Below, one piece after another: positions 3,261-40,687 of a stretch of DNA of 64,000 bases. Position 1 is the first letter of the stretch. Each line of letters begins with the position of its first letter. The notes under the pieces were generated by a model, which did not search any database, was not told the origin of the DNA, and saw only the letters and a list, made by a program, of their open reading frames with translations. A program made the position numbers and the translations under genes. The stretch comes from a virus: IMG/VR virus record IMGVR_UViG_3300027842_000015, positions 1 through 64,000 of that record; one strand, 5' to 3'.

Positions 3261-3919
3261 GGGGCACCTGTGAACATTGTTTCGTTGTGGTCTGCTTGAT
3301 ACCACGCCATGGGCACTTGGTCAAGAAGTTCTAACCGTGCAAGAGTATTCACTTCCCATTCAACATTACGGGTCTCGCTTATTCGTCGTGCCGCGGTACC
3401 CATGGCATACGCCGTAAACGGCTTTATCAGTGCACGAGGCACGACCATTACACCACCACAAAATCGCCAGCAGGGGTGTGCTGGATCGATATCTCGTTTC
3501 TTGGGCCAACAGCCGGGGAGTGTCACCTTGCCATAACTATCCACCCGGCTAAGGAATTTCTGAATTACCGGGGCGGTAATACTCGGAATATGCATAATTC
3601 CGTAATCGATCCAAACAAACGTATCCGCAGTGTCCATAGAATGCGCAACACGCAACCACTCAAATTTCTGGTGCTGTACGGCATGATAAGCGAGTGTGTT
3701 CTTGTCCGGGTTATCTGAAACAGAATGGGATACATTTGGCACACCCCGTAGAAAGTTAGCAAGCCACGTATCTTGAACTTTCTGCTGGTCACTATCGAAC
3801 ACAAGTGCTTCTACGTCGCCCAAGGACCCAAGTAATTGCTCACCGAGCGCCTTGTAATCGGTGGTTCCCCGAGGATGATTAGGGATATCGATATAACCCG
3901 TGACAACCTTTACTGCCAT
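3257..3919 (-). CDS. YibB/HtrL-like glycan protein, paralogue 2
   Basis: A 220-residue paralogue of the next gene, with FVWIDYGIMHI and CWRFCGG segments at matching positions. The start at 3919 (MAVKVVTG) was chosen for its AAGGG ribosome site and because it overlaps the glycosyltransferase end by only 10 bases. The aspartate of the IDYG motif could be a metal or nucleotide-sugar ligand if the fold is GT-A. Tandem duplication suggests two related transfer steps or subunits. It carries one perfect copy of the 15-bp palindrome (3565-3579). Confidence 0.7.
   Translation of the reverse strand: MAVKVVTGYIDIPNHPRGTTDYKALGEQLLGSLGDVEALVFDSDQQKVQDTWLANFLRGVPNVSHSVSDNPDKNTLAYHAVQHQKFEWLRVAHSMDTADTFVWIDYGIMHIPSITAPVIQKFLSRVDSYGKVTLPGCWPKKRDIDPAHPCWRFCGGVMVVPRALIKPFTAYAMGTAARRISETRNVEWEVNTLARLELLDQVPMAWYQADHNETMFTGAP
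3565..3579. repeat. 15-bp palindrome, perfect
   Basis: Inside YibB-like paralogue 2. Confidence 0.8.
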
Positions 3920-5868
3920 AGCAAATCCCTTACCTCGTGCTCGTCTATAGTTGCAAGCCAAGCTTCTCGGTCAAGCACACCAAACGAGACTATGAACTTA
4001 TCATTGTGGTGAGCAAGACCAGCAGCAAACTCAATTTGCTTTCCGAAGAACACAAACGGCTTCGACACCTTACGCAACACGTATTCTTTATCAAACCATA
4101 CAAACCGGTGTTGATAGTACCTCTTCCCATTTGTCGGGTCCGGACGTGCCTCATGAACGATTGCAATATACCCACCGTCAAACGGGACACATTGGCCACC
4201 ACCTGAAAACTGATCTACTGCAAGAATAGGTTCGTGTTTTACAACGAATTCTCCGTCACTTCTAACTACCCACCCAGGACGATACATGAACTTAAATCTT
4301 CTATCATCTAATATCGGCATCCAATTCTTTTCATTCTGTTTGGGTTCAACATCCATCCGGCGCCAATTAAATACCTCTCCAGTTTCTGGATTAATCTGCA
4401 TACAAAATTGTTCGCGCCATGCATTGGAATTCTGTTCAAGAACGCATCCATTAGTCCAAAGTTCTCCATGCCAAGGGATAAGTCTCATATCCTCAACATC
4501 GAGAATATCCTTGAATACCGGTGCAGGGAAACCGGTTGGACGTTGTAGTTCTACTACTTTTCCGACCACAAAATCCAGGCTAAAATCAGCCAAATAGTTA
4601 GTGGTGCGAATAGCATGATTGCCATTATAATCGTAGCTACCATCGGGTCTAATCCTATAGCTTACTGTACGCACGATTGCCTTGATCTTATCATCCACAA
4701 TCGCCACAGACGGATTTGAATTCACGAACTTGCTATCCGGATTTACCTCCGGAATTCTATAAGCCTTGAAAGACGGCGTGTAATTCTTAAGCGGTTGCAA
4801 ATACCAGAACACGTTCCGCCTAGCAGTCTCACGGACAACATCGGGCACCTTGCGCATAAGGGAAAGATTATCAGCAGCAGAAAAGCCAATATCACGTGTC
4901 TTATCATTATATGCCCCCAGTATAGACAGTTCTTCCATGAACCCATAATCATACACATGTTCCTCGACAAATAACAAATCTCCAGGCTTCTTTATCTTTG
5001 ACCCAGCTTGGGCAAAAAGCCAGCCGGTTTGTTGTGCGTCCTTTTGTTCTCGATAGTGCCTAGCAAGATCATAAAGCGGTTCCGCACGAGAAGGGCGGTC
5101 GTTATATGCATTCAACGCCCAACGTATAAATTCCCCTTCTTCACCCAAAGCACGATAACATCGTGCAATAGCTAGTCGGGCGTACCAGACTTCTTCGTCC
5201 CACCCTCCAACGTCAACTCGGCGTCGGTAGAATTCGATCGCCCGGGTATGGTCACCACTGTCACGATAAGTCTGGGCAAGATAAAATAGAGTGCGCCCGT
5301 CGTTAGGGTGGATACCAAGATACTCAGTAAGAAGTCGTGTATCACGCTCATATTTGTCACTCCTGTTAGAACCCGTAGCATGATCTCGGAACCACCAACA
5401 GTCAGTCGGTAACTTAGCCGGTGGTGCGTCAAGATATTCGTGCGTTACACCATGATACTTACGATCCGAGCCCTTTCGCAAAAGTCTTGCATTGTAATAC
5501 GCAAGCGATCCTTGACGCTGCAAAAGGCTATAACACTCTTCGGTAAGTTTTGGTAGCGGTCCATCGACTACCAGTTCCATGTCTGCATCGCAGAACATTA
5601 TGTAGTCAAACCCTGCGTGAAAACGTTGCGCATAAAACAACGCCTTATTGCGGGCTTGCTCAAAATTCTTGAACTCACCACCTACAATTTGATGGGGGAT
5701 ACTATACTTGTTAAACATCTCCCGCATGAACGCTTGCGATCCATCTGTGGACCCAGTGTCAAAAATTACCGCGGCGGTAATATGTGGGCACACACTCGCA
5801 AGCATGCGAGGTAGGTTCGAGATTTCATTCTTGATTATGGCATTAAGACAAATGCGTGGCTGCGGCAT
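3910..5868 (-). CDS. Glycosyltransferase family 2 - TPR - propeller-like fusion
   Basis: A 652-residue multidomain protein. Residues 5-110 are a family 2 glycosyltransferase: IIKNE, then FDTGSTDGS at 36-44, then the metal-binding DAD at 94-96 (FCDADME). Residues of about 180-330 contain helical repeats of TPR type (FYLAQTYRDSGDHTRAIEFY, then similar units). The C-terminal 270 residues show repeated beta-strand blocks like a glycoside-hydrolase-type propeller (LDVEDMRLIPWHGELW, HEPILAVDQFSGGG, GLAHHNDKFIVSFG). The enzyme probably transfers a sugar from a nucleotide donor, and the propeller may bind the acceptor glycan. It lies 32 bases after a collagen-like gene, so virion protein glycosylation is a reasonable inference. 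Confidence 0.85.
   Translation of the reverse strand: MPQPRICLNAIIKNEISNLPRMLASVCPHITAAVIFDTGSTDGSQAFMREMFNKYSIPHQIVGGEFKNFEQARNKALFYAQRFHAGFDYIMFCDADMELVVDGPLPKLTEECYSLLQRQGSLAYYNARLLRKGSDRKYHGVTHEYLDAPPAKLPTDCWWFRDHATGSNRSDKYERDTRLLTEYLGIHPNDGRTLFYLAQTYRDSGDHTRAIEFYRRRVDVGGWDEEVWYARLAIARCYRALGEEGEFIRWALNAYNDRPSRAEPLYDLARHYREQKDAQQTGWLFAQAGSKIKKPGDLLFVEEHVYDYGFMEELSILGAYNDKTRDIGFSAADNLSLMRKVPDVVRETARRNVFWYLQPLKNYTPSFKAYRIPEVNPDSKFVNSNPSVAIVDDKIKAIVRTVSYRIRPDGSYDYNGNHAIRTTNYLADFSLDFVVGKVVELQRPTGFPAPVFKDILDVEDMRLIPWHGELWTNGCVLEQNSNAWREQFCMQINPETGEVFNWRRMDVEPKQNEKNWMPILDDRRFKFMYRPGWVVRSDGEFVVKHEPILAVDQFSGGGQCVPFDGGYIAIVHEARPDPTNGKRYYQHRFVWFDKEYVLRKVSKPFVFFGKQIEFAAGLAHHNDKFIVSFGVLDREAWLATIDEHEVRDLLWQ
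5766..5780. repeat. 15-bp palindrome, perfect
   Basis: Inside the glycosyltransferase N-terminal domain. Confidence 0.8.
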
Positions 5869-10245: not shown

Positions 10246-10788
10246 ATGACCCAGATCGTACCCACAGTACCTATTACCGTCCCGGTAATTGAAGGCGCAC
10301 CACAACTTACCATTGTTCTAGTCGCTGGTCTAGCTAGAGAAATTGCAATGGGTATTCGGGAGCTACCCGATATCCTTGAGACCTACAAGCTATCGCCAGC
10401 AGCTTACGAAAAACTTAAGGATCACGAGGTCTTCATAAAGCTGGTTGACAGCGCCCGGATTGAATGGCATGCTGCGACCAATACCCCAGGGAGAACCCAG
10501 ATAGAAGCAGCGGCCGCCCTCGAACAGGCTATCCCGGTGGCCTACGCAAGAGCTATAAGCGGCAATGAGGCGATGAACCATGTCACCGATTTCCTCAAAC
10601 TTCTCGCAGATATCGGAGGCGTCAGAAAGGACCCAAGCAAAGCTTCCCCAGGCGAACGGTTCCAAATCAACATCAATCTTGGGGCCGATACGACAATCTC
10701 ACTCGATGGGTCTAAGATGCCCATCTCCGGTGATCCAGTCCTCCAGGCCCTTCCGGTGCCTGAGGTTGATAAAGAGGAACGCGTGTAG
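10246..10788 (+). CDS. Putative terminase small subunit
   Basis: A 180-residue, largely helical protein (AREIAMGIRELPDILETYKLS, ARIEWHAATNTPGRTQIEAA, then a GERFQININLGADTTISLD strand segment). It is first in a plus-strand operon that ends with the large terminase, the usual position of the small subunit, which recognises packaging DNA. The strand segment resembles the C-terminal oligomerisation or portal-docking tails of small terminases, but no clear helix-turn-helix was identified. One perfect TTACCG-N3-CGGTAA palindrome lies within its first 15 codons. Confidence 0.55.
   Translation: MTQIVPTVPITVPVIEGAPQLTIVLVAGLAREIAMGIRELPDILETYKLSPAAYEKLKDHEVFIKLVDSARIEWHAATNTPGRTQIEAAAALEQAIPVAYARAISGNEAMNHVTDFLKLLADIGGVRKDPSKASPGERFQININLGADTTISLDGSKMPISGDPVLQALPVPEVDKEERV
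10274..10288. repeat. 15-bp palindrome, perfect
   Basis: Codons 10-15 of the putative small terminase; reads ITVPV there. It is also 66 bases from the portal start. Confidence 0.8.
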
Positions 10789-11243
10789 TGGCTTATAATA
10801 CAAAAGAAAAAGAGCTAGAATATCGTCGCAAACGAAGAGAACAAATACGTAATGATCCTGAATTACGAGCTAGATACGCGGCATATGTAAGAAAATATAG
10901 GCATACACTAAAGGGGAAAGCCACGATACATAAATATCGTCAAACAAGTCCTTTGTATAAAGAACAAGTACGAAGACGGGCTACATATCCAAACGGAATA
11001 GCAAAACGACAAAGAGCGTATCAATCCGAAGCTGGAAGAGAAAAATCAAGACGAAGTTCAGCGCTATGGAAACAACGACACCCAAAAGAACATAAAATTA
11101 GAAATCGTGAATATTATATAACAAATCGAGAACGTATACTTGCCCAAAAAAGAGAATATAACTTGTTACATATGGAAGAACGACGCGCCAAAGAAAGAGA
11201 AAGGTACTGGATATGTCGCCAAAATCCACAACCGACTTGCTAA
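10788..11243 (+). CDS. Basic repeat protein, possible HNH-endonuclease relic
   Basis: A 151-residue, very basic protein with a GTG start overlapping the upstream stop region. It consists of Tyr/Arg/Lys-rich repeats (EYRRKRREQIRND, YVRKYRHTLKGKA, YYITNRERILAQKREYN), a pattern typical of the N-terminal DNA-binding part of many phage HNH homing endonucleases. The HNH catalytic motif and zinc knuckles are absent. The gene is more AT-rich than the terminase genes around it and overlaps the next by 31 bases. It may be a truncated mobile endonuclease or a DNA-binding accessory protein. Confidence 0.6.
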   Translation: MAYNTKEKELEYRRKRREQIRNDPELRARYAAYVRKYRHTLKGKATIHKYRQTSPLYKEQVRRRATYPNGIAKRQRAYQSEAGREKSRRSSALWKQRHPKEHKIRNREYYITNRERILAQKREYNLLHMEERRAKERERYWICRQNPQPTC

Positions 11244-12316
11244 ACGATGCTAATGAAGTTATTCGTCGTCAAGGAAATGAAATCACTGGGCTTAAATCAA
11301 CATTACGAAATGTTCAACGCGATGCTGATACTGCGGAAGAAATCCGTAAGGTAATCTTCCAAATCACTGAACATGACCCCAAACCGCCAGCGTGGGTAAC
11401 CGGATCAGGAGGACATAGTGGGCAACGTGGTTCTCCATGTACAATTTGGTCAGATTGGCATTATGGGGAAGTCATTGATCCATCTCAAGTAGGCGGCGCC
11501 AACAAATTCAATGCTGATATAGCCAAAAAGCGCGCGGAGAAGTTAGTCAACACTACTATCGATCTTTGTTACAACCACATGGGACGTGCTAAAGCTGTGT
11601 ATCCTGGTATTGTAGTGTGTCTCGGCGGTGATATGATCGGAGGCAACATTCATGAAGAACTTGCGGAAACGAATGACCGCACGCCGATGCAAGCAGTTAA
11701 CGATCTCACTGACTTGCTCGCCGGATGTATCGACACTATGGCCTCCAAATTCGGAAATGTTTTCCTCCCCTCAGTTGTCGGCAATCATGGACGTACTACG
11801 CCGAAACCCCGTCTCAAGAGCGCCGTCTTCCACTCATATGATTGGGGTATCTATTGCAACCTTACAAGATGTTTTAAGGGAAATAAACACGTCCAGTTCA
11901 TGATCCCCAATGAGATCGATGCACGCTTCAACGTGTACGGACATAGATATCTTCTCACTCATGGGGACAACTTAGGTGTCAAAGGCGGCGATGGGATCAT
12001 TGGCGCTATCGGGCCAATCATGCGCGGTAGCCTTAAGGTCCATGCCTCAGAAGCCGAAATCGGTCGCGATTTTGACACCGCCCTTATTTGTCACTGGCAT
12101 CAGTACATCACCTTACCGGGCTTAATCGTCAACAATGCTCTCAAAGGCTATGACGAGTACGCCCGACTTAGGCTACGAGCCAAATATAGCCGCCCCTCTC
12201 AGGCACTGTGGTTTACCCACCCGGAACACGGTATTACTGCCCACTGGCAAGTATACCTTGAACCTAAATTCAAAAAGGAAGAGGCATCCAAATCCTGGGT
12301 GTCCTGGAAAGCATAA
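11213..12316 (+). CDS. Calcineurin-like metallophosphoesterase
   Basis: A 367-residue protein with all five calcineurin-type metal motifs in order: SDWH (about residue 82), GGD (about 139), GNHGR (about 189), THGD (about 250) and CHWHQY (about 293). A short coiled-coil segment (NEVIRRQGNEITGLKSTLRN) precedes the enzyme. Such enzymes cleave phosphodiester bonds with two metals; nucleic acid or a nucleotide is the likely substrate. It sits between the putative small and the large terminase and ends where the large subunit begins, so a part in packaging or DNA-end processing is possible. Confidence 0.85.
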   Translation: MSPKSTTDLLNDANEVIRRQGNEITGLKSTLRNVQRDADTAEEIRKVIFQITEHDPKPPAWVTGSGGHSGQRGSPCTIWSDWHYGEVIDPSQVGGANKFNADIAKKRAEKLVNTTIDLCYNHMGRAKAVYPGIVVCLGGDMIGGNIHEELAETNDRTPMQAVNDLTDLLAGCIDTMASKFGNVFLPSVVGNHGRTTPKPRLKSAVFHSYDWGIYCNLTRCFKGNKHVQFMIPNEIDARFNVYGHRYLLTHGDNLGVKGGDGIIGAIGPIMRGSLKVHASEAEIGRDFDTALICHWHQYITLPGLIVNNALKGYDEYARLRLRAKYSRPSQALWFTHPEHGITAHWQVYLEPKFKKEEASKSWVSWKA

Positions 12317-13770
12317 TGTTTGATTATGACGCACCCCCGACCATCGCCCGCTTCTGTAAGTGTGAAAAATACGGAAGACTTATTGCAGGACCTGTTGGTT
12401 CTGGAAAAACTACGGGTGTTATTGTTGAACTCCTCAGGCGCGCATGGCAGCAAAAGCCGGGAGACGACGGGCTCAAATACACCCGCTTCGCCGTCACCCG
12501 TCAAACCCTCAAACAGTTGAAAGATACTGTTCTAAAGGACTGCGACACATGGCTGAATGCGAATGGTATCGGGGAATGGAAAGTTTCCGAAAGCTGTTAT
12601 CACATAAATTTCGACAGAGTGCGCTCAGAATGGATATTTCTGCCGTTAGAAGATGCGGCCGATCAGGGCAGATTACTCTCTATGCAGCTTACCGGCGCAT
12701 GGTTGAGCGAATGTATAGAGATGGACATATCGATCTTAGGACCGCTGAGTGGTCGTATCGGGCGTTATCCAAGTGGTACGAAGGGCGCCCCGACGTGGAA
12801 TGGAATTGTTGCGGATACGAACATGCCTCCGGAACTGACACCGTGGCACAAGTTCATGGAGGAACCAAGACCTGATTGGGCGATCTTCAAACAACCATCG
12901 GGGCTAGCCTGGAATGCCGAAAACCTTGACCATCTTCTTCAAACAGAAGAAACTCGCAAACTGCCTATTGGCCATCCTGATCGGATTGCTAGGGGTAGAG
13001 AGTATTATAATAGGATGGTTAGGGATCACGGGATTGATAGTGATTATGTTAAGCGATATGTGAAGGCAGAGTACGGTGATGACCCAACAGGACGAGCAGT
13101 ATTCCGTGAGACATTCCGTTCAAACTGGCACGTTGTTGACGATACAAACGTTATACCAGGATACCCTCTTATCGTCGGTCAAGATTTTGGTCGAGACCCA
13201 TGGTCGCTCATATGTCAACCTGACCATATGGGAAGACTTATCGTCCATGAAGAAGTACCGGCTGAAAACATCGGATTGGAAAAGCACTGTCAACAAAGTC
13301 TTAGAGGGAGACTTCTCCAAACTAAATACCTTGGTTGTAAAATTGCCCTAGTAGGAGACCCTGCCGGTGTCGCAAAATCAACCCACTCAGAAGAAACTTC
13401 CTTCGATCTCCTGGGAAGACTTGGATTTCCCTGTTTCGCTGCTCCCACAAATGATCTCGACCCCCGTTTACGAGCAGTTGAAAGCTTCCTTGGTCGCCAC
13501 ACGAATGGCGGCCCGTCAATGCTTATCAATCGTGAGGGATGCCCCCATCTTATCCGAGCACTGGCGGGCGGTTACCGTTTCGAATTCGCCACCCAAACAG
13601 GGTTGAGAAAGCCCACCCCGCGCAAAGATGAATATTCCCACGTAGCCGACACGCTACAGTATGTGTGTCTGGCATGCCACGGCGGCATGCTCTACGGAAT
13701 TGCACGAGAATTACAGGGGTCCGGGCGTAGGCAGAAACAATTAACTATGCCGTCAGGTGCATGGACTTAA
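12316..13770 (+). CDS. Terminase large subunit
   Basis: A 484-residue packaging motor. The Walker A loop is GPVGSGKTTG (about residues 26-35) and a Walker B-like stretch is LTGAWLSECIEMD. The C-terminal RNase H-like nuclease has its acidic residues in GQDFGRDP (about 287-294), ALVGDPAG (about 352) and EYSHVADTLQY (about 455). The protein pumps DNA into the prohead through the portal and cuts the concatemer. It is the last gene of the packaging operon and its 3' end overlaps the convergent gene by four bases. Confidence 0.93.
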   Translation: MFDYDAPPTIARFCKCEKYGRLIAGPVGSGKTTGVIVELLRRAWQQKPGDDGLKYTRFAVTRQTLKQLKDTVLKDCDTWLNANGIGEWKVSESCYHINFDRVRSEWIFLPLEDAADQGRLLSMQLTGAWLSECIEMDISILGPLSGRIGRYPSGTKGAPTWNGIVADTNMPPELTPWHKFMEEPRPDWAIFKQPSGLAWNAENLDHLLQTEETRKLPIGHPDRIARGREYYNRMVRDHGIDSDYVKRYVKAEYGDDPTGRAVFRETFRSNWHVVDDTNVIPGYPLIVGQDFGRDPWSLICQPDHMGRLIVHEEVPAENIGLEKHCQQSLRGRLLQTKYLGCKIALVGDPAGVAKSTHSEETSFDLLGRLGFPCFAAPTNDLDPRLRAVESFLGRHTNGGPSMLINREGCPHLIRALAGGYRFEFATQTGLRKPTPRKDEYSHVADTLQYVCLACHGGMLYGIARELQGSGRRQKQLTMPSGAWT

Positions 13771-14260: not shown

Positions 14261-14453
14261 GGCGTCCTCCTGTGTTGGGCACTGCCCAGTATTCCCAGAC
14301 CCCTAGTTCCCTACGGCGTTGTACTAGATGAACCTCACCTTTTTCATATCGTTTCCATAATCTGGTAGCAGTCATGTCCAGGTGTTTATTCCAATCAAGC
14401 AATCTATCGTACATCAGAAATCCAACATGATAAAGAATTGCATTCTTACGCAT
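14202..14453 (-). CDS. Hypothetical protein
   Basis: An 83-residue basic protein (RLWKRYEKGEVHLVQRRREL) of unknown function. Its start overlaps the end of the winged-helix gene by 8 bases, which supports the call. Its C-terminal 19 codons overlap the small secreted protein gene, so one of the two may end or begin elsewhere. Confidence 0.45.
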   Translation of the reverse strand: MRKNAILYHVGFLMYDRLLDWNKHLDMTATRLWKRYEKGEVHLVQRRRELGVWEYWAVPNTGGRHVESNSRTLTTVVRKRHHA

Positions 14454-14964
14454 TGATCAATTCCCAAAGTTTACTTCTGTGCTCTTCGCTCATATCATAC
14501 CCAATAGAGTGAATTGTATTCATTTTCAACCCCAAAGGGACAAGCTTTTTTCTGAGTTTACAAACCACAACATCGACAATTTTAATATCTGTCTCGTCGT
14601 CCGGATTTCCCCGATTATCTTCAACAGCCATATGAAGCTGCTCTCGCGATGCATGACCCCGCCGCAGAAGCACAAGCAAAATACTGCTCTCCAATTTCGT
14701 GGTCTTCAGTTTACGCGCCATACGCAAAATAGTCTCACGATCATCCTCCTGGATTTTATGAGGGGCCACAGTAGGAGTACGCTGATCTCGGGGAGTAAGC
14801 GGTGGCCAGTCTTCACGGGGCATTTCAATAAGACGCCCGGCATTTAGAGCGTTATTCACTGCCAATCTCAAATCAACAGGATCAGAACGAAAAATACGCT
14901 TGAGGGCTCCTATAGGAACACCTTCGTCAGCGGCTCGCACAATATACTCGCTAAGGTCCAACAT
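14446..14964 (-). CDS. Winged-helix transcription regulator (OmpR/CtrA-type DNA-binding domain)
   Basis: A 172-residue protein; the start at MLDLSEY was chosen because the upstream in-frame extension looks like a chance signal sequence. Residues from about 75 to 165 fit an OmpR-type winged helix: LESSILLVLLRRGHASREQL, DIKIVDVVVCKLRKKL (recognition helix), and IHSIGYDM (wing). The IVDVVVCKLRKKL/GIGY-like pattern is close to CtrA-family response regulators of alphaproteobacteria, but no receiver domain is present. As the only clear transcription factor in the window it is a candidate binder of the repeated palindrome. Its target is unknown. Confidence 0.7.
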   Translation of the reverse strand: MLDLSEYIVRAADEGVPIGALKRIFRSDPVDLRLAVNNALNAGRLIEMPREDWPPLTPRDQRTPTVAPHKIQEDDRETILRMARKLKTTKLESSILLVLLRRGHASREQLHMAVEDNRGNPDDETDIKIVDVVVCKLRKKLVPLGLKMNTIHSIGYDMSEEHRSKLWELINA

Positions 14965-15073
14965 AATAAACTCGGGTGGGTCCGCCACCAACGCCCCCAC
15001 TAGGCAGAGACTACTCGATGCCAGCGCTAGCGACGAACCCAACTCGCTAGACTAGTACGAATAAGTTAAAAAT

Positions 15074-16481: not shown

Positions 16482-16556
16482 TGGAGACAGGAGTTGGGAT
16501 TGAACCAACAACCAGCGGCTTAACAGACCGCCGCTCTACCACTGAGCTATCCTGTC
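16482..16556 (-). tRNA. tRNA-Asn (GTT)
   Basis: A complete cloverleaf reads on the minus strand. The acceptor GACAGGA pairs with TCCTGTC, the D arm contains AGTGGTAGAG, and the anticodon loop CTGTTAA gives GTT. The T arm is GTTGG-TTCAATC-CCAAC and an encoded CCA follows. The 5' end falls within the lysozyme stop codon and the 3' end abuts the palindrome at 16467-16481. Confidence 0.95.
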
Positions 16557-17322
16557 ACAGTCTCCAGAATGCTGCAAGAAGTTCTGATATCAGCCCACCG
16601 TGCGCCACTGCCGTGGTCGCAACAGGATGATCTGATCCCAACGGTTGCGTGGTGACAGGGTGTGACGGTGGCACTACTACCTGTCCTGGCGTTCCCGCGA
16701 ACTGAATACTCTTGTCGAGCAATTGCATTCGCTTTAGGATGGGGGCACATCCTTCCTGCACATCCACTGCGCTAGCGCGGTAAACATGATCAGCCACATA
16801 CTTGCCAGAAACATACTGATCACTACCACTCCAAACATAAGCACTGGGAACACCACGCATAGCATAACCCAGTCCATTGTACTCCTCCAATAGCGTGAGC
16901 GCGCCACCCGGCGTCCAGTCATGCCACAACGCAGCATGCGGTGCGCAGTCGATAAGCGCATCTAGAGCACACCGAAGCCACGCATTATTGAGATTGTTAT
17001 CGCCAGGATGATCAAGAAAAGGCCCACGGCCGGCAGGATCGTGACGGGAGACTTGATTGAGTGGGTCCCCCTGACCAAGCTGCTTATCCCATCGTGGCGG
17101 TCCGCCATATTCTCTCTCCGCAATTACCGCAATCACGAACCACGGCACAGGTTGATATCCAGCAGTCTGCAAGCGAGTAGTAACCGCTTGGAAGCGTGGT
17201 TTATTCTCAAGTGCTGTAAGACGTTTGGCTGCACTATCAAATGATAGAGTGCGCTTCGCGTCCAGCACCATCCGGTCCCACCGTTCCTGGTTCTTTTTGA
17301 TCAATGCAGGGATATCGGTCAT
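16555..17322 (-). CDS. Phage lysozyme (endolysin)
   Basis: A 255-residue protein starting at MTDIPAL, with GGAGAG seven bases upstream. Residues of about 55-190 match the phage lysozyme-like family whose members start with a VIAVIAEREYGG-type segment (Glu in AEREYGG is the likely catalytic acid), followed by a WTPGGALTLLEEYNGLGYAM stretch and a YVWSGSDQY segment. It would cut peptidoglycan at lysis. There is no signal peptide, so a holin should release it. The C-terminal 60 residues are Pro/Val/Thr-rich and end in LISELLAAFWRL, which could contact membrane. Confidence 0.85.
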   Translation of the reverse strand: MTDIPALIKKNQERWDRMVLDAKRTLSFDSAAKRLTALENKPRFQAVTTRLQTAGYQPVPWFVIAVIAEREYGGPPRWDKQLGQGDPLNQVSRHDPAGRGPFLDHPGDNNLNNAWLRCALDALIDCAPHAALWHDWTPGGALTLLEEYNGLGYAMRGVPSAYVWSGSDQYVSGKYVADHVYRASAVDVQEGCAPILKRMQLLDKSIQFAGTPGQVVVPPSHPVTTQPLGSDHPVATTAVAHGGLISELLAAFWRL

Positions 17323-17407
17323 CGTTCTCTCCAAACTTTCTCAATAGGTACCGGATATACTTTCCGTCTCTGAACAAGTCTTCAAGGTATTCCTCGTAGG
17401 GTGACAT
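17237..17407 (-). CDS. Possible short protein overlapping the lysozyme start
   Basis: A 56-residue frame beginning MSPYEEYLEDLFRDGKYIRY with a strong GGGAGGATGAT leader at 17408-17418. Its last 28 codons overlap the lysozyme start in another frame. The first 22 residues look protein-like, the rest less so. It may be a coupled leader peptide. Confidence 0.35.
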   Translation of the reverse strand: MSPYEEYLEDLFRDGKYIRYLLRKFGENDDRYPCIDQKEPGTVGPDGAGREAHSII

Positions 17408-17408
17408 A

Positions 17409-17807
17409 TCATCCTCCCGATGGAAGTACGTAGCAGAAGACCGTGTGACCTATCATCCAGACCCATCCATGACCTGTCGGGTTTCGCCGCAAGAAGTTCA
17501 AATCGGTAATGATCCTGTCTTTTGGAATGTGTACACGGGAACCAGTAGGAACTCCAATGCCGCCTTCGGTAATGGTGGCATAGAGTTCCCCATTCTCAGT
17601 CTCAAAGTCATCAGCTTCATATGCATCCGTGTCTTCTGCACAACAACTTTGGATCGAGTGCCAATCACCTGTCGGATCGCTCCCTGGCCTACGTGCATCC
17701 TCGAACCACTTCTGACGTTCAGGCGAAGACTGCGCCCACTTGCTGGGGTTACCTGCATACGCAAAAGTAGACAGAAGCAGGCAGGTTGTCAATATGACGC
17801 TACGCAT
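17409..17807 (-). CDS. Secreted hypothetical protein
   Basis: A 132-residue protein with a typical signal peptide (MRSVILTTCLLLSTFAYA, cleavage after AYA). The mature part has a CCAED cysteine pair, a THxVFCY-like end (IGHTVFCYVLPSGG) and a GSRVHIPKDRI strand block. The paired cysteines suggest a disulfide in the periplasm. Similar secreted proteins are, from memory, common in rhizobial genomes, which would fit transfer from the host. Function unknown; a lysis or superinfection role is possible. Confidence 0.7.
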   Translation of the reverse strand: MRSVILTTCLLLSTFAYAGNPSKWAQSSPERQKWFEDARRPGSDPTGDWHSIQSCCAEDTDAYEADDFETENGELYATITEGGIGVPTGSRVHIPKDRIITDLNFLRRNPTGHGWVWMIGHTVFCYVLPSGG

Positions 17808-17833
17808 TAGGTCACCTATGGTCGTGGTTCACC

Positions 17834-17911
17834 TTAATAAAGATGTTTCGAGAGAAACTTGTCCACTCTTAGCCAGAAGCTAAACCATATTTGTTTCAAT
17901 TTCTCAAACAT
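17834..17911 (-). CDS. Possible 25-residue amphipathic peptide
   Basis: A short frame reading MFEKLKQIWFSFWLRVDKF and ending SKHLY. It has an excellent AGGAGAAGG ribosome site, better than many longer genes here. The peptide forms an amphipathic helix rich in Trp, Phe and Lys. It lies between tRNA-Pro and the secreted protein gene. Size alone makes it uncertain. Confidence 0.4.
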   Translation of the reverse strand: MFEKLKQIWFSFWLRVDKFLSKHLY

Positions 17912-17926
17912 AACCTTCTCCTGTGA

Positions 17927-18000
17927 TCAGGGTGGCAGGATTTGAACCTACGACTGCATGGTTCCAGGCCATGCTCTCTACCGGGCTGAGTTACACCCTG
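17927..18000 (-). tRNA. tRNA-Pro (TGG)
   Basis: The minus strand folds as a cloverleaf with acceptor CAGGGTG/CACCCTG, D-loop AGCCCGGTA, anticodon stem CATGG/CCATG and T arm GTAGG-TTCAAAT-CCTGC. The loop CCTGGAA gives anticodon TGG, with C instead of the usual U at position 33. CCA is not encoded (ATCA follows). The body matches bacterial tRNA-Pro. Confidence 0.8.
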
Positions 18001-18006
18001 TTTTAG

Positions 18007-18249
18007 TTACTTAGCATGAACGACGACACGGTGCAACTTGAATTTCTTCCAGTAGTCTGTCACCTCAGTGAGGAACCCGGCAAGGTATTTATGGGGGACC
18101 TTGTACTCTCTATCCCTGATACCATCAGGGAAACCATATCCAGACCCTGTAAACTTTCCATAATGCTGATAAGCAACAGCATCTATTACCTTGTCAGTTT
18201 TGTCAACCTGTTTGTCGGAGTGGTGATAATATTCAACACAAACTCGCAT
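18007..18249 (-). CDS. Hypothetical protein
   Basis: An 80-residue protein (YYHHSDKQVDKTDKVIDAVA, then GSGYGFPDGIRDREY) with mixed charge and no membrane span. GGGAG precedes the start. It lies six bases from tRNA-Pro. The pattern resembles small phage proteins of unknown function; no domain is assigned. Confidence 0.6.
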   Translation of the reverse strand: MRVCVEYYHHSDKQVDKTDKVIDAVAYQHYGKFTGSGYGFPDGIRDREYKVPHKYLAGFLTEVTDYWKKFKLHRVVVHAK

Positions 18250-18768: not shown

Positions 18769-18990
18769 TCACGCCTTGACCACGTTGAGGCTGAACTTGA
18801 CCGGGCCTTGGACGATGAAGCCTCCGGTTGTGGCCACGAGAGACGGTGGCACCGTGTCCGCAGCCAAGCCCTTGGCGGCCGCCTTGGCAAGGGCAGACTT
18901 GCTCTGCGTGGCACCCTTAAGCGCCTTCTCACTAACATCGATAACGATGCACAGCTTGTTCCCGTCAACGATTTCGGCCTTGTAGGACAT
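18769..18990 (-). CDS. First leftward early gene, small hypothetical protein
   Basis: A 73-residue protein starting MSYKAEIVDGNKLCIVIDV, with a GGGAG ribosome site eight bases upstream. A strand-rich N-terminus is followed by a KSALAKAAAKGLAAD helix and a C-terminal strand block (GGFIVQGPVKFSLNVV). It is the first gene of the leftward transcript and ends close to a terminator, so it is probably strongly and separately expressed. Its leader holds the conserved element at 19028-19061. The function is unknown. Confidence 0.7.
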   Translation of the reverse strand: MSYKAEIVDGNKLCIVIDVSEKALKGATQSKSALAKAAAKGLAADTVPPSLVATTGGFIVQGPVKFSLNVVKA

Positions 18991-19179: not shown

Positions 19180-19483
19180 TAATTATTCCGACCGTTGATT
19201 TTGCTACCGTTTCACCTTAATTGTATAATTTGCTAGTGTTTTTGAAATTACACCCTTAGTGCATGTGTTCGTACCACTTGGTGATGGCGTTGGGTAAGGT
19301 TTTATTACTGCAAGTCTAAAGACTATGGGACGAAAAATCCAAATATATAGAAATTAATAAATCCCTAACCAACGTCATCACCAAGTGGTACGAACAACAG
19401 TGTATAGGTGTTTAAAATGAAAAACACTAGCAAATTATACAATTGGCCAAAAAGGTGAAACGGTTCAACGGTCCGAATAATTA
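19180..19483. repeat. Large interrupted inverted repeat, divergent control region
   Basis: Two arms, 19180-19296 and 19366-19483, are imperfect reverse complements. Four blocks match: 19180-19198 with 19465-19483 (18 of 19), 19206-19218 with 19452-19464 (13 of 13), 19219-19243 with 19420-19444 (25 of 25) and 19266-19296 with 19366-19396 (29 of 31). The centre (19297-19365) is AT-rich. The region lies in the 621-base gap between the leftward and rightward early genes, with promoters just outside each arm. It could be a paired operator, paired promoters or a replication origin. No protein-coding frame is apparent. Confidence 0.85.
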
Positions 19484-19535
19484 CGCACCTCTTTTGTTCT
19501 CACACGCTAATTGAACAGCCAACGATACAATTAGG

Positions 19536-19564
19536 TTGACAACGCGATATGGCTCTGATATATA
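19536..19564 (+). promoter_or_regulatory. Rightward sigma-70-type early promoter
   Basis: TTGACA (19536-19541), a 17-base spacer and TATATA (19559-19564) form a near-consensus promoter. Transcription should start near 19571, 41 bases before the first early gene. The right arm of the inverted repeat lies 52 bases upstream. Confidence 0.8.
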
Positions 19565-19611
19565 GCGGTCTCCATCACCTAAATCCTGATGGTTAACTTA
19601 TGGAGATTAAA

Positions 19612-20103
19612 ATGCCTGCAAGTGCTCTTAGACCACGTTTAACCGATGAATGGACTATACCAGCAGAAGCTTTGCGCAATCGTATTGATAGATGTTTGCG
19701 TAAACTTGTACCATATAGAGAGTTAGTTTATGATCATTCCACGTGCGGCTTTTTTGTACGTATCATAAGTAAAGATGCACAACATATGACAAGACAAGGA
19801 CCATACTTATTTGAACACTTCGCTGGGCTCGCGCGTATGCTTGGCTTGTTCCATTTGAGTAATGGTGTTGACTTGCCACCTGTGACGGTTATAAGTCGCC
19901 AAGGCAAAGAGTATCCGGAGAAGCCGCTGCCAGCCCTGCTACAATTCAACGTTGTAACGCAAGCATATGCGGATATGGCAAGGCAATTGCAGGCGAGTGG
20001 CTTGTACACGGTGACACCTGTTACCGATGCGGTAACACAGGAAGAACTAATAGATTTCGATGATCTAACTCCAGAGCAACAACGCGCGTTACGGGGTTTT
20101 TAG
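19612..20103 (+). CDS. First rightward early gene, unknown function
   Basis: A 163-residue protein. The start at MPASALRP was preferred over the ATG at 19600 because GGAG lies six bases upstream of it and inside the longer frame. No recognised domain; the sequence looks globular and alpha/beta (DEWTIPAEALRNRIDRCLRK, CGFFVRIISKD, YLFEHFAGLARMLGL) with an acidic end. It is the first gene after a strong promoter, a usual place for host-takeover proteins. It carries one perfect palindrome (20021-20035). Confidence 0.7.
   Translation: MPASALRPRLTDEWTIPAEALRNRIDRCLRKLVPYRELVYDHSTCGFFVRIISKDAQHMTRQGPYLFEHFAGLARMLGLFHLSNGVDLPPVTVISRQGKEYPEKPLPALLQFNVVTQAYADMARQLQASGLYTVTPVTDAVTQEELIDFDDLTPEQQRALRGF
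20021..20035. repeat. 15-bp palindrome, perfect
   Basis: Inside the first rightward early gene. Confidence 0.8.
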
Positions 20104-20113
20104 GTACGGGGCG

Positions 20114-20146
20114 TTAACCAAACGCCAACCGGCCAGTGATACGGGC
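20114..20146 (+). promoter_or_regulatory. Conserved leader element, right copy
   Basis: TTAACCAAACGCCAAC, two bases, then GCCAGTG and CGGGC, matching the element at 19028-19061 in opposite orientation. It starts 10 bases after the first early gene and lies 45 bases before the next start, in a GC-rich leader. Confidence 0.55.
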
Positions 20147-37627: not shown

Positions 37628-40600
37628 TTGAGTACAAACATTCGCGACTTCCTGCTTCGCGTATTACCTTGGCCCGGGGACGATCTCCCCGGGTTCTTAA
37701 ATGTGCATGTTCAAGGTAAAATAGATGGCAAATCGTTTTGGTCTGGTGCGCCAACACGAAACGTAGACCAATTTCTGCAAGCGGTTTACACATATCGTAG
37801 TTGGCCTACGCCACCGGACATTTATTTCTGTTTGTCCCGCCAGTCTCATGTGAAAACTATCGGAGACAGACAGAAGGCTGCCAAATCCCAACAGAATGCA
37901 TTAGCCCTAAAAGCCATATGGTTAGACGTTGACGTGAAACCTAAGGCGTTCCAAACCATAGCGGAGGCACTAGATGCCGTCAAAGAGTTCTATACTAAAA
38001 ATTCTTTGCCTAAGCCTTCTGCTTACGTGGCCTCTGGCGGCGGTCTTCATGTTTATTGGATATCTGATCGCGCACTAGCTCCGCAAGAGTGGCAACCATA
38101 TGCGGAAGGGCTTAAGGCTCTAGCGATAGAGTTCTTTGGTGGCAAAATCGATGCTGGTGTAATTGCGGATAGCGCACGAGTATTGCGCGTACCCGGTACA
38201 CGCAACTATAAGTACGACCCACCGAAAGATGTGAAACTACTTGGCATAGGAGGCGACTATGACTTTTCTCAAGCTTTATCTACTTTGCCGTTATTGGTTA
38301 CGCCAAATAGTTTTAGACATACTATACCCAATAATCACATACTTACCGGTAAGCCTGACGCTGCCTTTGTTTCACTATCTGTCGAAAGTTGCGGAGAAGG
38401 ACTTAGAGCGTTGGAACCGTTACCTCCGCTCGATCCAACCGAAATGGTCCGACAGTGCGGACACTTCCGAGAAGCACTAACAACCGGTGGCAAAGACTTC
38501 TCGCAAGGTCTTTGGAACCTAACCACTCTTGCGTCTACGTTTTTGGAGGATGGCCATGCACTTGCACATAGGATGGCTAGGGGTCACAGCGGATATACGT
38601 ATGACGAGACTGAAGCGCTTTGGGAACGGAAGCTTGCTGAACGCCAATCTATCGGTTTGGGTTGGCCCTCGTGTTCCTCTATTCAGGGCGAAGGTTGCAA
38701 ACATTGTGCAACCTGTCCGATCTTGGCTAGAAACAAGTCACCCCTCAATCTGGCGAGAATTCCAGTACGGCAATCCGCCAGTGGACGGGTTAATATTTTA
38801 TCCACGCCCGTGGCGACATATGTGGCACCTAGCCAAGTTGGAACGTCAAGGGTTTTGGTACCCTTAACAGACGCGGATATGCCTGATCCTTCGTACACTG
38901 TAATCAACGACATAATCCACAAAATAATCGAACATAGCTCACGTGGTGAAGCTCCTGATATCAAGCACTTGCCACTTTTCCACTGCAAACTATACGATCC
39001 GTGGGTACAGGCATGGCCTGATGCGTTGAATTTTATTACCTCGGCTGACAAGGGTTCCTATGCTGAGGTATGTTTGGAAAAGAAAAAGATGACCGCAATG
39101 GAACTCGAACGTGTTCTTTTAGATGCACGGGTACTACATGTTCCTGAGAACATGAAATATGTGAGGAGTTTTATCATGTCGTGGCTTGGAAAATTACAGA
39201 ACGCAGCCGCCGCTCATACCAACGTGCCATTCGGATGGCATATGGATGGTAACACTTGCAAGGGGTTCTCCTACGGGAGTATCTTATACAAACCCGATGG
39301 GTCACGTGGACCAGTTGGTCTAATCGATCCCAAATTGCGCGCGAAATATGGTCCTACTGGTGACGTTGATTGTTGGTGGGAAGCATACAGAACCATTCGT
39401 AATCAAGAACGCATCGGTCTACAGGTTGTCATGGCTTCCGCATTCGCTGCCCCACTGATGTTTGGTTCTGGGCAATATTGTGTGCTTATGTCTGTGTTCG
39501 GAGATAGTGGCGCGAATAAGTCCTCCGCAGCGCGGGTAGCCGCCGCGGTGTGGGGTAGCCCTAAGCTGACCAAGGAAAACGAGAACGCCACGGAGAAGTC
39601 TGTACTTCAAACCCTTGGGCAGATCAAGCATCTTCCCTATTTCTGGGATGAAATCAAAAATGATCAAGCCCAAAAGAAAGCATATAATGTCCTGTATATG
39701 GGGACAGGTGGTGCAGAAGGTAGCCGTCTTAATGCGGATGTAACCCAGCGAGATAAGGGAGATTGGCAAACGATTGTGGGTATTTTCTCCAATCCTTGTT
39801 TTGGGAATTACATCTTGAAGGAAAATCCCAATACTACTGCTGGTCTTATGCGTGTATTCGAGTGGGAGGAAAAAGAACCTCCTAAAGGTGGCCCTGGCCA
39901 GATTAGCGTAAGTGACGCTGACCGCATCTTCGACAAGCTGGATCGAAATTTTGGTCAAATTGGAAAAGAGTATTCAGCTTTCCTGGGAGCTAATCACGAT
40001 CTTGTGTATCAACATGTATCACAGGAAGGCCGTTGGTTCGAAAAAGCCGTTGAAGACCCCAAGAGGAATACTAATGCTGAGCGTTTTTGGATTGCATTTG
40101 CATCCGCGATACAAAGCGGTGCGGAATTTGCGAACCAGTATATCGGAACCGACTTTGACCTAGACGAAATGCGAATATTCCTTGTTCAGAAAATCCTTGC
40201 CATGCGCGCTCGTAGCCGAGAAGAAAATGTGCAAGGGGGCAGTGCCGAACATACTGAAGATATGCTCACTAATTTTCTGAAATATGAGGAACGTGCCACT
40301 TGTGCTACGAAAGGGGCACCGCCACTGAAACCCGGTACTCCCGGGATTATAAATATCGACCACGCCCCACAGAATGGCGTAGCTGTGCAAGTTCAATGGA
40401 TAAACGGTCCTAATCCCGAGCTACGTTTCTCTAAGAAAGAGTTTTACCGGTGGCTGGGACAACCCGACGTAAAAGGTGACACTCGCGCAATTATGGAAGG
40501 TTTAAAGAAGCACTATGGCGCGATTGTAAAGCGTGGCACGTTGGCGGCCGGTACCAATCTCGCACATGGCGCAGAACCGCTTGTATTTATGCCAGTTCCA

Positions 40601-40687
40601 AATGGAGATGGTATTGGAGAGATGATGCCTGATAAACCAGTGGATATGTCTGTGATGCTAGCTAACCCTGATGCCGTCAAATCGTGA
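37628..40687 (+). CDS. Primase-helicase (AEP-type primase plus DUF927-like ATPase)
   Basis: A 1,019-residue protein with TTG start. The N-terminal part has archaeo-eukaryotic primase features: WLDVDVK (about residues 98-104, catalytic Asp-x-Asp) and ASGGGLHVYW (about 135-144). The C-terminal part is a superfamily 3-like or DUF927-type helicase: Walker A GDSGANKSS (about 625-633), then FWDEIKND as Walker B, and a TTAGLMRVFEW segment. The enzyme would make primers and unwind the fork for the family A polymerase. Its last 30 bases overlap the convergent fibre gene. Confidence 0.9.
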   Translation: MSTNIRDFLLRVLPWPGDDLPGFLNVHVQGKIDGKSFWSGAPTRNVDQFLQAVYTYRSWPTPPDIYFCLSRQSHVKTIGDRQKAAKSQQNALALKAIWLDVDVKPKAFQTIAEALDAVKEFYTKNSLPKPSAYVASGGGLHVYWISDRALAPQEWQPYAEGLKALAIEFFGGKIDAGVIADSARVLRVPGTRNYKYDPPKDVKLLGIGGDYDFSQALSTLPLLVTPNSFRHTIPNNHILTGKPDAAFVSLSVESCGEGLRALEPLPPLDPTEMVRQCGHFREALTTGGKDFSQGLWNLTTLASTFLEDGHALAHRMARGHSGYTYDETEALWERKLAERQSIGLGWPSCSSIQGEGCKHCATCPILARNKSPLNLARIPVRQSASGRVNILSTPVATYVAPSQVGTSRVLVPLTDADMPDPSYTVINDIIHKIIEHSSRGEAPDIKHLPLFHCKLYDPWVQAWPDALNFITSADKGSYAEVCLEKKKMTAMELERVLLDARVLHVPENMKYVRSFIMSWLGKLQNAAAAHTNVPFGWHMDGNTCKGFSYGSILYKPDGSRGPVGLIDPKLRAKYGPTGDVDCWWEAYRTIRNQERIGLQVVMASAFAAPLMFGSGQYCVLMSVFGDSGANKSSAARVAAAVWGSPKLTKENENATEKSVLQTLGQIKHLPYFWDEIKNDQAQKKAYNVLYMGTGGAEGSRLNADVTQRDKGDWQTIVGIFSNPCFGNYILKENPNTTAGLMRVFEWEEKEPPKGGPGQISVSDADRIFDKLDRNFGQIGKEYSAFLGANHDLVYQHVSQEGRWFEKAVEDPKRNTNAERFWIAFASAIQSGAEFANQYIGTDFDLDEMRIFLVQKILAMRARSREENVQGGSAEHTEDMLTNFLKYEERATCATKGAPPLKPGTPGIINIDHAPQNGVAVQVQWINGPNPELRFSKKEFYRWLGQPDVKGDTRAIMEGLKKHYGAIVKRGTLAAGTNLAHGAEPLVFMPVPNGDGIGEMMPDKPVDMSVMLANPDAVKS

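Follow-up and report, generated by a model that had tools for sequence, protein, structure and literature searches.

Several described systems join a replicative helicase to the recognition of its origin, or place repeated initiator sites between genes. In phage P4, the alpha protein combines primase, helicase and origin-binding parts in one polypeptide, and origins of the herpesvirus/SV40 type consist of inverted initiator sites and an AT-rich centre served by an initiator with helicase activity. Phage origins can also lie in divergent intergenic regions with a transcription-linked start, as in the lactococcal phage c2. SaPI Rep recognises the iterons of its origin through its C-terminal domain, and a relationship of the DUF927 protein Cch to SaPIBovI Rep has been described (PMC7581432). 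In the Vibrio cholerae PLE, the replication origin consists of repeats in a non-coding stretch that separates divergent operons (PMC7145576). Here we analysed an interrupted inverted repeat at a strand switch in an uncultivated phage (positions 19180-19483), a region for which a literature search found no describing publications. Judging from sequence comparison, it is probably a replication origin of the phage, bidirectional and of the iteron type, beside an early promoter, with arms that are predicted sites for the C-terminal region of a primase-helicase. The start of genome copying is thus the most likely role of this mirror-image region.

The window, that is, the whole stretch of 64,000 nucleotides that was analysed, is part of a virus record of 66,098 bases (IMG/VR record IMGVR_UViG_3300027842_000015). 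Its genome encodes a portal-like protein, a terminase, a family-A DNA polymerase, an SNF2-type helicase, a 1019-aa primase-helicase with DUF927 and a 2097-aa protein with an InPase domain, which is found also in a DarB-like family. The family is podovirus-like, with genomes of 66 kb; its cultured relatives are RHph_TM27A and other Rhizobium phages akin to it, with Pseudomonas phage Rollin further removed. A terminase scan led to 80 IMG/VR loci, and 18 longer records, read in pieces, were oriented on the DNA polymerase for comparison. The terminase block (10246-13770 in the window) is inverted between two clades, lying on the plus strand in the window, G001, G004, G006, G010 and others and on the minus strand in G007, G008 and G014-G018. 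The DNA polymerase match is in two parts in two records (G005:C1:29393-31739, with a gap of ~437 bp, and G019:C1:47214-49036, in adjacent pieces), for which an insertion, an intron and an assembly error are candidate explanations.

Two reverse-complement arms in blocks, one of them matching at 25 of 25 positions, had been reported in a preliminary description of this DNA and were confirmed by direct reading, repeat search and blastn; the AT-rich centre between them was borne out as well (Table 1). The repeat search recovered the arm pairs 19266-19307/19355-19396 (42 nt, 90%), 19219-19258/19405-19444 (40 nt, 85%) and 19168-19198/19465-19495 (31 nt, 81%), and blastn of the region against its own complement gave 73% identity (E 6.6e-44). 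The palindrome (self-complementarity) score was 238, compared with 23.8 ± 4.5 and a maximum of 45 in 1000 dinucleotide shuffles, and the next-best score anywhere in the window was 53. Of all the elements, the end block is best matched in the closest relative, G001, in both of its arms, and the motif related to the 13-bp block is present in the region of several relatives, often in divergent orientation. An exact-DNA search of viral contigs with the inner block gave no match.

Within the window the arms are 71% alike, whereas they are 51-59% like the arms of G001; this suggests that the arms of one genome change in concert. This likeness, and the length of the complementary arms, would also suit a structured nucleic acid under selection as a cruciform, hairpin or RNA stem, the telomere of a linear replicon, or a small transposable element; we consider this group of readings highly improbable. 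Specifically, indels separate the blocks of the window arms, relatives keep only short inverted sites with poorly paired DNA between them, the genomic place is conserved, and no Rfam match was obtained within the region. A mobile element was rejected because blastn found no second copy of the repeat in the virus record, and a telomere of the N15 linear-plasmid prophage type because the palindrome is not continuous through the centre, with 47 bp separating the arms.

Table 1. Coordinates of the inverted-repeat region and of associated genes (positions in the window).
Feature	Position	Strand	Remarks
Left arm	19180-19307	+	Blocks 19180-19198, 19206-19218, 19219-19243, 19266-19307
Right arm	19355-19483	-	Blocks 19355-19396, 19420-19444, 19452-19464, 19465-19483
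Centre, 47 bp	19308-19354	.	~68% AT; proposed (putative) unwinding element
25-bp block AATTGTATAATTTGCTAGTGTTTTT	19219-19243	+	Exact reverse complement at 19420-19444
13/13 block ACCGTTTCACCTT	19206-19218	-	Mate 19452-19464; related to motif AAGGTGAAAAGG(T)
End block TAATTATTCCGACCGTTGA	19180-19198	+	Mate 19465-19483
Sigma70-like promoter TTGACA-N17-TATATA	19536-19564	+	Outside right arm; TATATA at 19559; 10/12 matches
First leftward ORF	18769-18990	-	Similar-looking small ORFs there in several relatives (by eye)
First rightward gene, 167 aa	19600-20103	+	No family match
Winged-helix-like protein	14446-15042	-	Weak Trans_reg_C; end of leftward operon; 17/18 relatives
Primase-helicase	37628-40687	+	N-terminal primase-type PHROG match, DUF927 AAA+ helicase, C-terminal region; proposed initiator

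A gapped inverted repeat of ~180-340 bp was found at the minus/plus strand switch in the window and in ten relatives (G001, G002, G005, G006, G007, G011, G014, G015, G016 and G017). Apart from G007, where its place is given by the strand switch, it lies 8-13 kb upstream of the DNA polymerase wherever the record contains that gene. By strength it ranks first or second in its own record in 10 of these 11 genomes and third in G011. When the loci and the window were cut into 14,509 segments of 450 bp, those with a palindrome score of at least 60 were mostly at the equivalent place. The sequences of the repeat differ among relatives, except for the window/G001 pair and short shared repeats. Conservation of the arms in relatives, which had been named as a point on which the earlier reading could fail, therefore held for the layout in all ten, with recognisable sequence only in G001. 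A clear long inverted repeat was not seen in G004, G010, G012, G018, G019, G021 or RHph_TM27A; despite this, G010, G012, G018 and G019 carry short repeats at the switch. RHph_TM27A (MN988461) has an AT-rich gap without annotated genes at ~19355-20125, a candidate origin. Tyrosine-integrase-like genes were observed beside the region in L161 (~4300-4945 and 5290-5345), where the gene comes with a tRNA 3'-end-like sequence that is a possible attachment site, and in G017 (rotated 17162-18205); some members of the family may be temperate.

Many relatives carry their own repeat of 8-12 bp at the switch, which is rare elsewhere in the genome: ACCGCGTCC in G002, CCACCATTTTCC in G005, TAAGTGTCCA in G007, AGAAATGCTG in G011, TAATTGGTCC in G014, TATTAGCTGT in G016, TAAATGTCCA in G015, G017 and G018, CATTCGCCAA in G012, TAATGATCCA in G010 and CACGTTGCCA in G019. 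As a rule the copies face each other across an AT-rich centre, and the copies in the two arms are opposed in most genomes with a long inverted repeat. Of 13 regions, 10 contain a second motif, AAGGTGAAAAGGT (with at most two mismatches), which is often divergently placed. The window region holds six copies of AACGGT as well as its inverted blocks; it has no repeated 9-mer, and no clear short tandem repeat was found in the region of the window or of G001. In Rollin, 25-bp palindromes (AAAAGGTAG..CTACCTTTT) lie at the start of the record, in the gap before the rightward genes. At 22.8-26.9 kb of G012 (rotated), a repeat array, an HTH-like ORF and a further ORF are duplicated in tandem.

The distribution of these repeats was compared with that of the primase-helicase. 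DUF927 (Pfam PF06048) was matched in 16/16 members scanned, and the helicase part has homologues in SCCmec Cch (5DGK, E 3.4e-18) and in the pathogenicity-island protein 8TCH (E 1.9e-15). G015, G017 and G018 share both a repeat and a type of middle and C-terminal parts, which are 48-58% identical among the three genomes (88% between G017 and G018) and ~19-39% identical to all others. The N-terminal part, which does not track the repeat type, is 49-68% identical within the clade of G015 and its relatives (88% between G017 and G018). An out-of-sample genome, G028, was obtained through terminase similarity. Its strand-switch region (L169 ~3880-4160) contains the repeat of G015/17/18, AAATGTCC, in inverted copies on the two sides of an AT-rich stretch. 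The middle and C-terminal parts of its primase-helicase are 48-49% and 41-44% identical to those of G015/17/18 and at most 35% and 28% identical to others (residuals >3 sd), whereas the N-terminal part is 34-44% identical to all compared. When 61 genes of G015 were ranked by how far their similarity to G017 and G028 exceeds that to any genome not sharing the repeat, the helicase/C-terminal segment came first, at +0.32 bits per residue, against -0.33 for its own N-terminal part.

G007 is a contrary case: its repeat is one base off that of G015, yet its C-terminal fragment is only 28% like that of G015, so that the sharing of C-terminal type expected from near-identical repeats failed there. G008 shares its C-terminal type with G014, and the G008 contig seems to be without the origin region. 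The comparison covers a small number of genomes and a pattern first seen post hoc, and the association comes from one group because several members with the protein are available for a single repeat type. For that one repeat type, co-inheritance with the helicase/C-terminal part was observed. Since the repeats change with the helicase/C-terminal half, the primase-helicase is the protein to test as their reader. The predicted structure of its C-terminal half has an AlphaFold pLDDT of 37. In G016 the primase-helicase frame breaks near rotated 43093, close to a short duplicated stretch; this may be a sequencing or assembly error. The preliminary description had offered a replication origin as one of two options, and the conserved position, the lineage repeats inverted around an AT-rich centre and the co-inheritance with the helicase/C-terminal part all support it. 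Against it count the G007 case, the window and G001 regions that show no clear short tandem repeat, the relatives in which a clear long inverted repeat was not seen, and the 18 kb between the repeat and the gene of the proposed initiator.

The other option was that one protein controls both operons. As a divergent operator, the region would bind a phage regulator at inverted lineage-specific sites, and so control a leftward and a rightward unit. The position between divergent genes fits such an operator, as do the winged-helix-like protein found across the relatives (Table 1) and an ORF of Cro/CI-like appearance that adjoins the repeat array of G012. The near-consensus promoter described earlier is indeed present, with TTGACA at 19536, 52 bp beyond the right arm. 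However, no promoter was found outside the left arm, where a weaker candidate had been proposed, and no leftward promoter was consistent across the relatives examined. The winged-helix-like protein, the one DNA-binding regulator seen throughout the family, does not explain the changing repeats, since its putative recognition helix is kept nearly constant across the family. The repeat type of G015/17/18/28 goes instead with the helicase/C-terminal segment, and the repeats are concentrated in one region. Control of both operons by one protein is therefore without specific support, and we regard the operator as unlikely. By eye, the winged-helix-like protein resembles CtrA-type DNA-binding domains; CtrA-like boxes (TTAA-N7-TTAA) were tried as its sites and rejected, as 4/38 in the regions were too few.

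The genes on either side of the switch were also considered. The switch itself lies where it had been placed, between leftward and rightward genes, but the label "early" is unsupported for the leftward ones, because a small ORF, tRNA genes and what may be a lysis gene make up the leftward neighbours of the arm. There are three tRNAs on this side, and the protein at 16555-17334 resembles a lysis enzyme by eye, without a family match. Small ORFs adjoining the switch in several relatives look like GDTLVLTIDIS..SGKTKVLATTSGF. On the rightward side are replication genes. DNA similar to the first of the rightward genes adjoins the origin region of L003 (the G001 record), and a scan for relatives of its 167-aa protein found none.

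With a near-consensus rightward promoter present, the region may be origin and early promoter together. A stronger form of this, in which transcription from the early promoter starts or modulates the origin and the repeats serve both roles, seems to us quite improbable. A promoter is found near the right arm in the window, in G001 (TTGACT-N17-TATAAC, close to the arm) and in G006, but the DNA beside the right arm showed no comparable promoter in G002, G005, G007, G014 or G016, all of which keep the repeat.

A GC-skew switch at 19.3 kb had been suggested as a check on the origin. The switch is present, and skew extremes lie near the repeat, but it is not diagnostic. Specifically, the sign is opposite in G014-G018 compared with the window, G001, G004 and G006, and the 4-fold sites have a skew that goes with gene strand in several genomes, with a mixed picture in others. 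Consequently, GC skew was rejected as proof of an origin.

For the replication origin that we prefer, the following mechanism can be proposed. In each arm, the C-terminal region of the primase-helicase would bind at predicted sites. With the arms opposed around the AT-rich centre, a pair of initiator rings could load, one in each direction, and melt the centre. Two forks would then start, with the primase supplied by the same polypeptide. We infer the initiator binding, the melting, the bidirectionality and the bases of the sites in the window from the arrangement of these elements. Origins are rarely known for uncultivated phages; here the candidate region spans 0.3 kb and a putative initiator can be named. 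Some ten repeat types found in nature could be paired with their own C-terminal parts, and the combination of a strand switch, concentrated inverted short repeats and an AT-rich centre provides a search layout for other phages with a DUF927 helicase.

More tentatively, the family could diversify its origin specificity as plasmids and SaPIs do, with the helicase/C-terminal half exchanged as a module together with repeats that lie 18 kb from the gene; we hold this as possible, though on balance doubtful. If true, the members would fall into distinct replicon types, none of which starts the replication of another, and this might serve to escape satellites or co-infecting relatives. Modular exchange would be relevant to the question of why some related phages interfere with each other's replication and others do not.

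Compared with the systems described above, the likeness to herpesvirus and SV40 origins is an analogy of layout, and no sequence relationship is claimed. The PLE shares the position of repeats between divergent operons, but its initiator is a RepA_N protein and not a helicase. Like P4 alpha, the phage polypeptide combines primase, helicase and proposed origin-binding parts. With SaPI Rep and Cch the phage shares a homologous DUF927-type AAA+ helicase. Short repeats at the proposed origin are a likeness that is clear in many relatives; the window itself has inverted blocks and AACGGT there, and no repeated 9-mer. The C-terminal part may read the repeats, as reported for SaPI Rep. Unlike in SaPIs, the helicase is fused to a primase-like part, and the arms form a long inverted repeat in a family of 66-kb tailed phages. 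The SaPI origin lies directly downstream of rep, whereas the phage repeat is at 19.3 kb and the gene at 37.6-40.7 kb. Because the repeat is not directly downstream of the gene, we describe the putative phage origin as SaPI-like in its working rather than as a member of the SaPI type.
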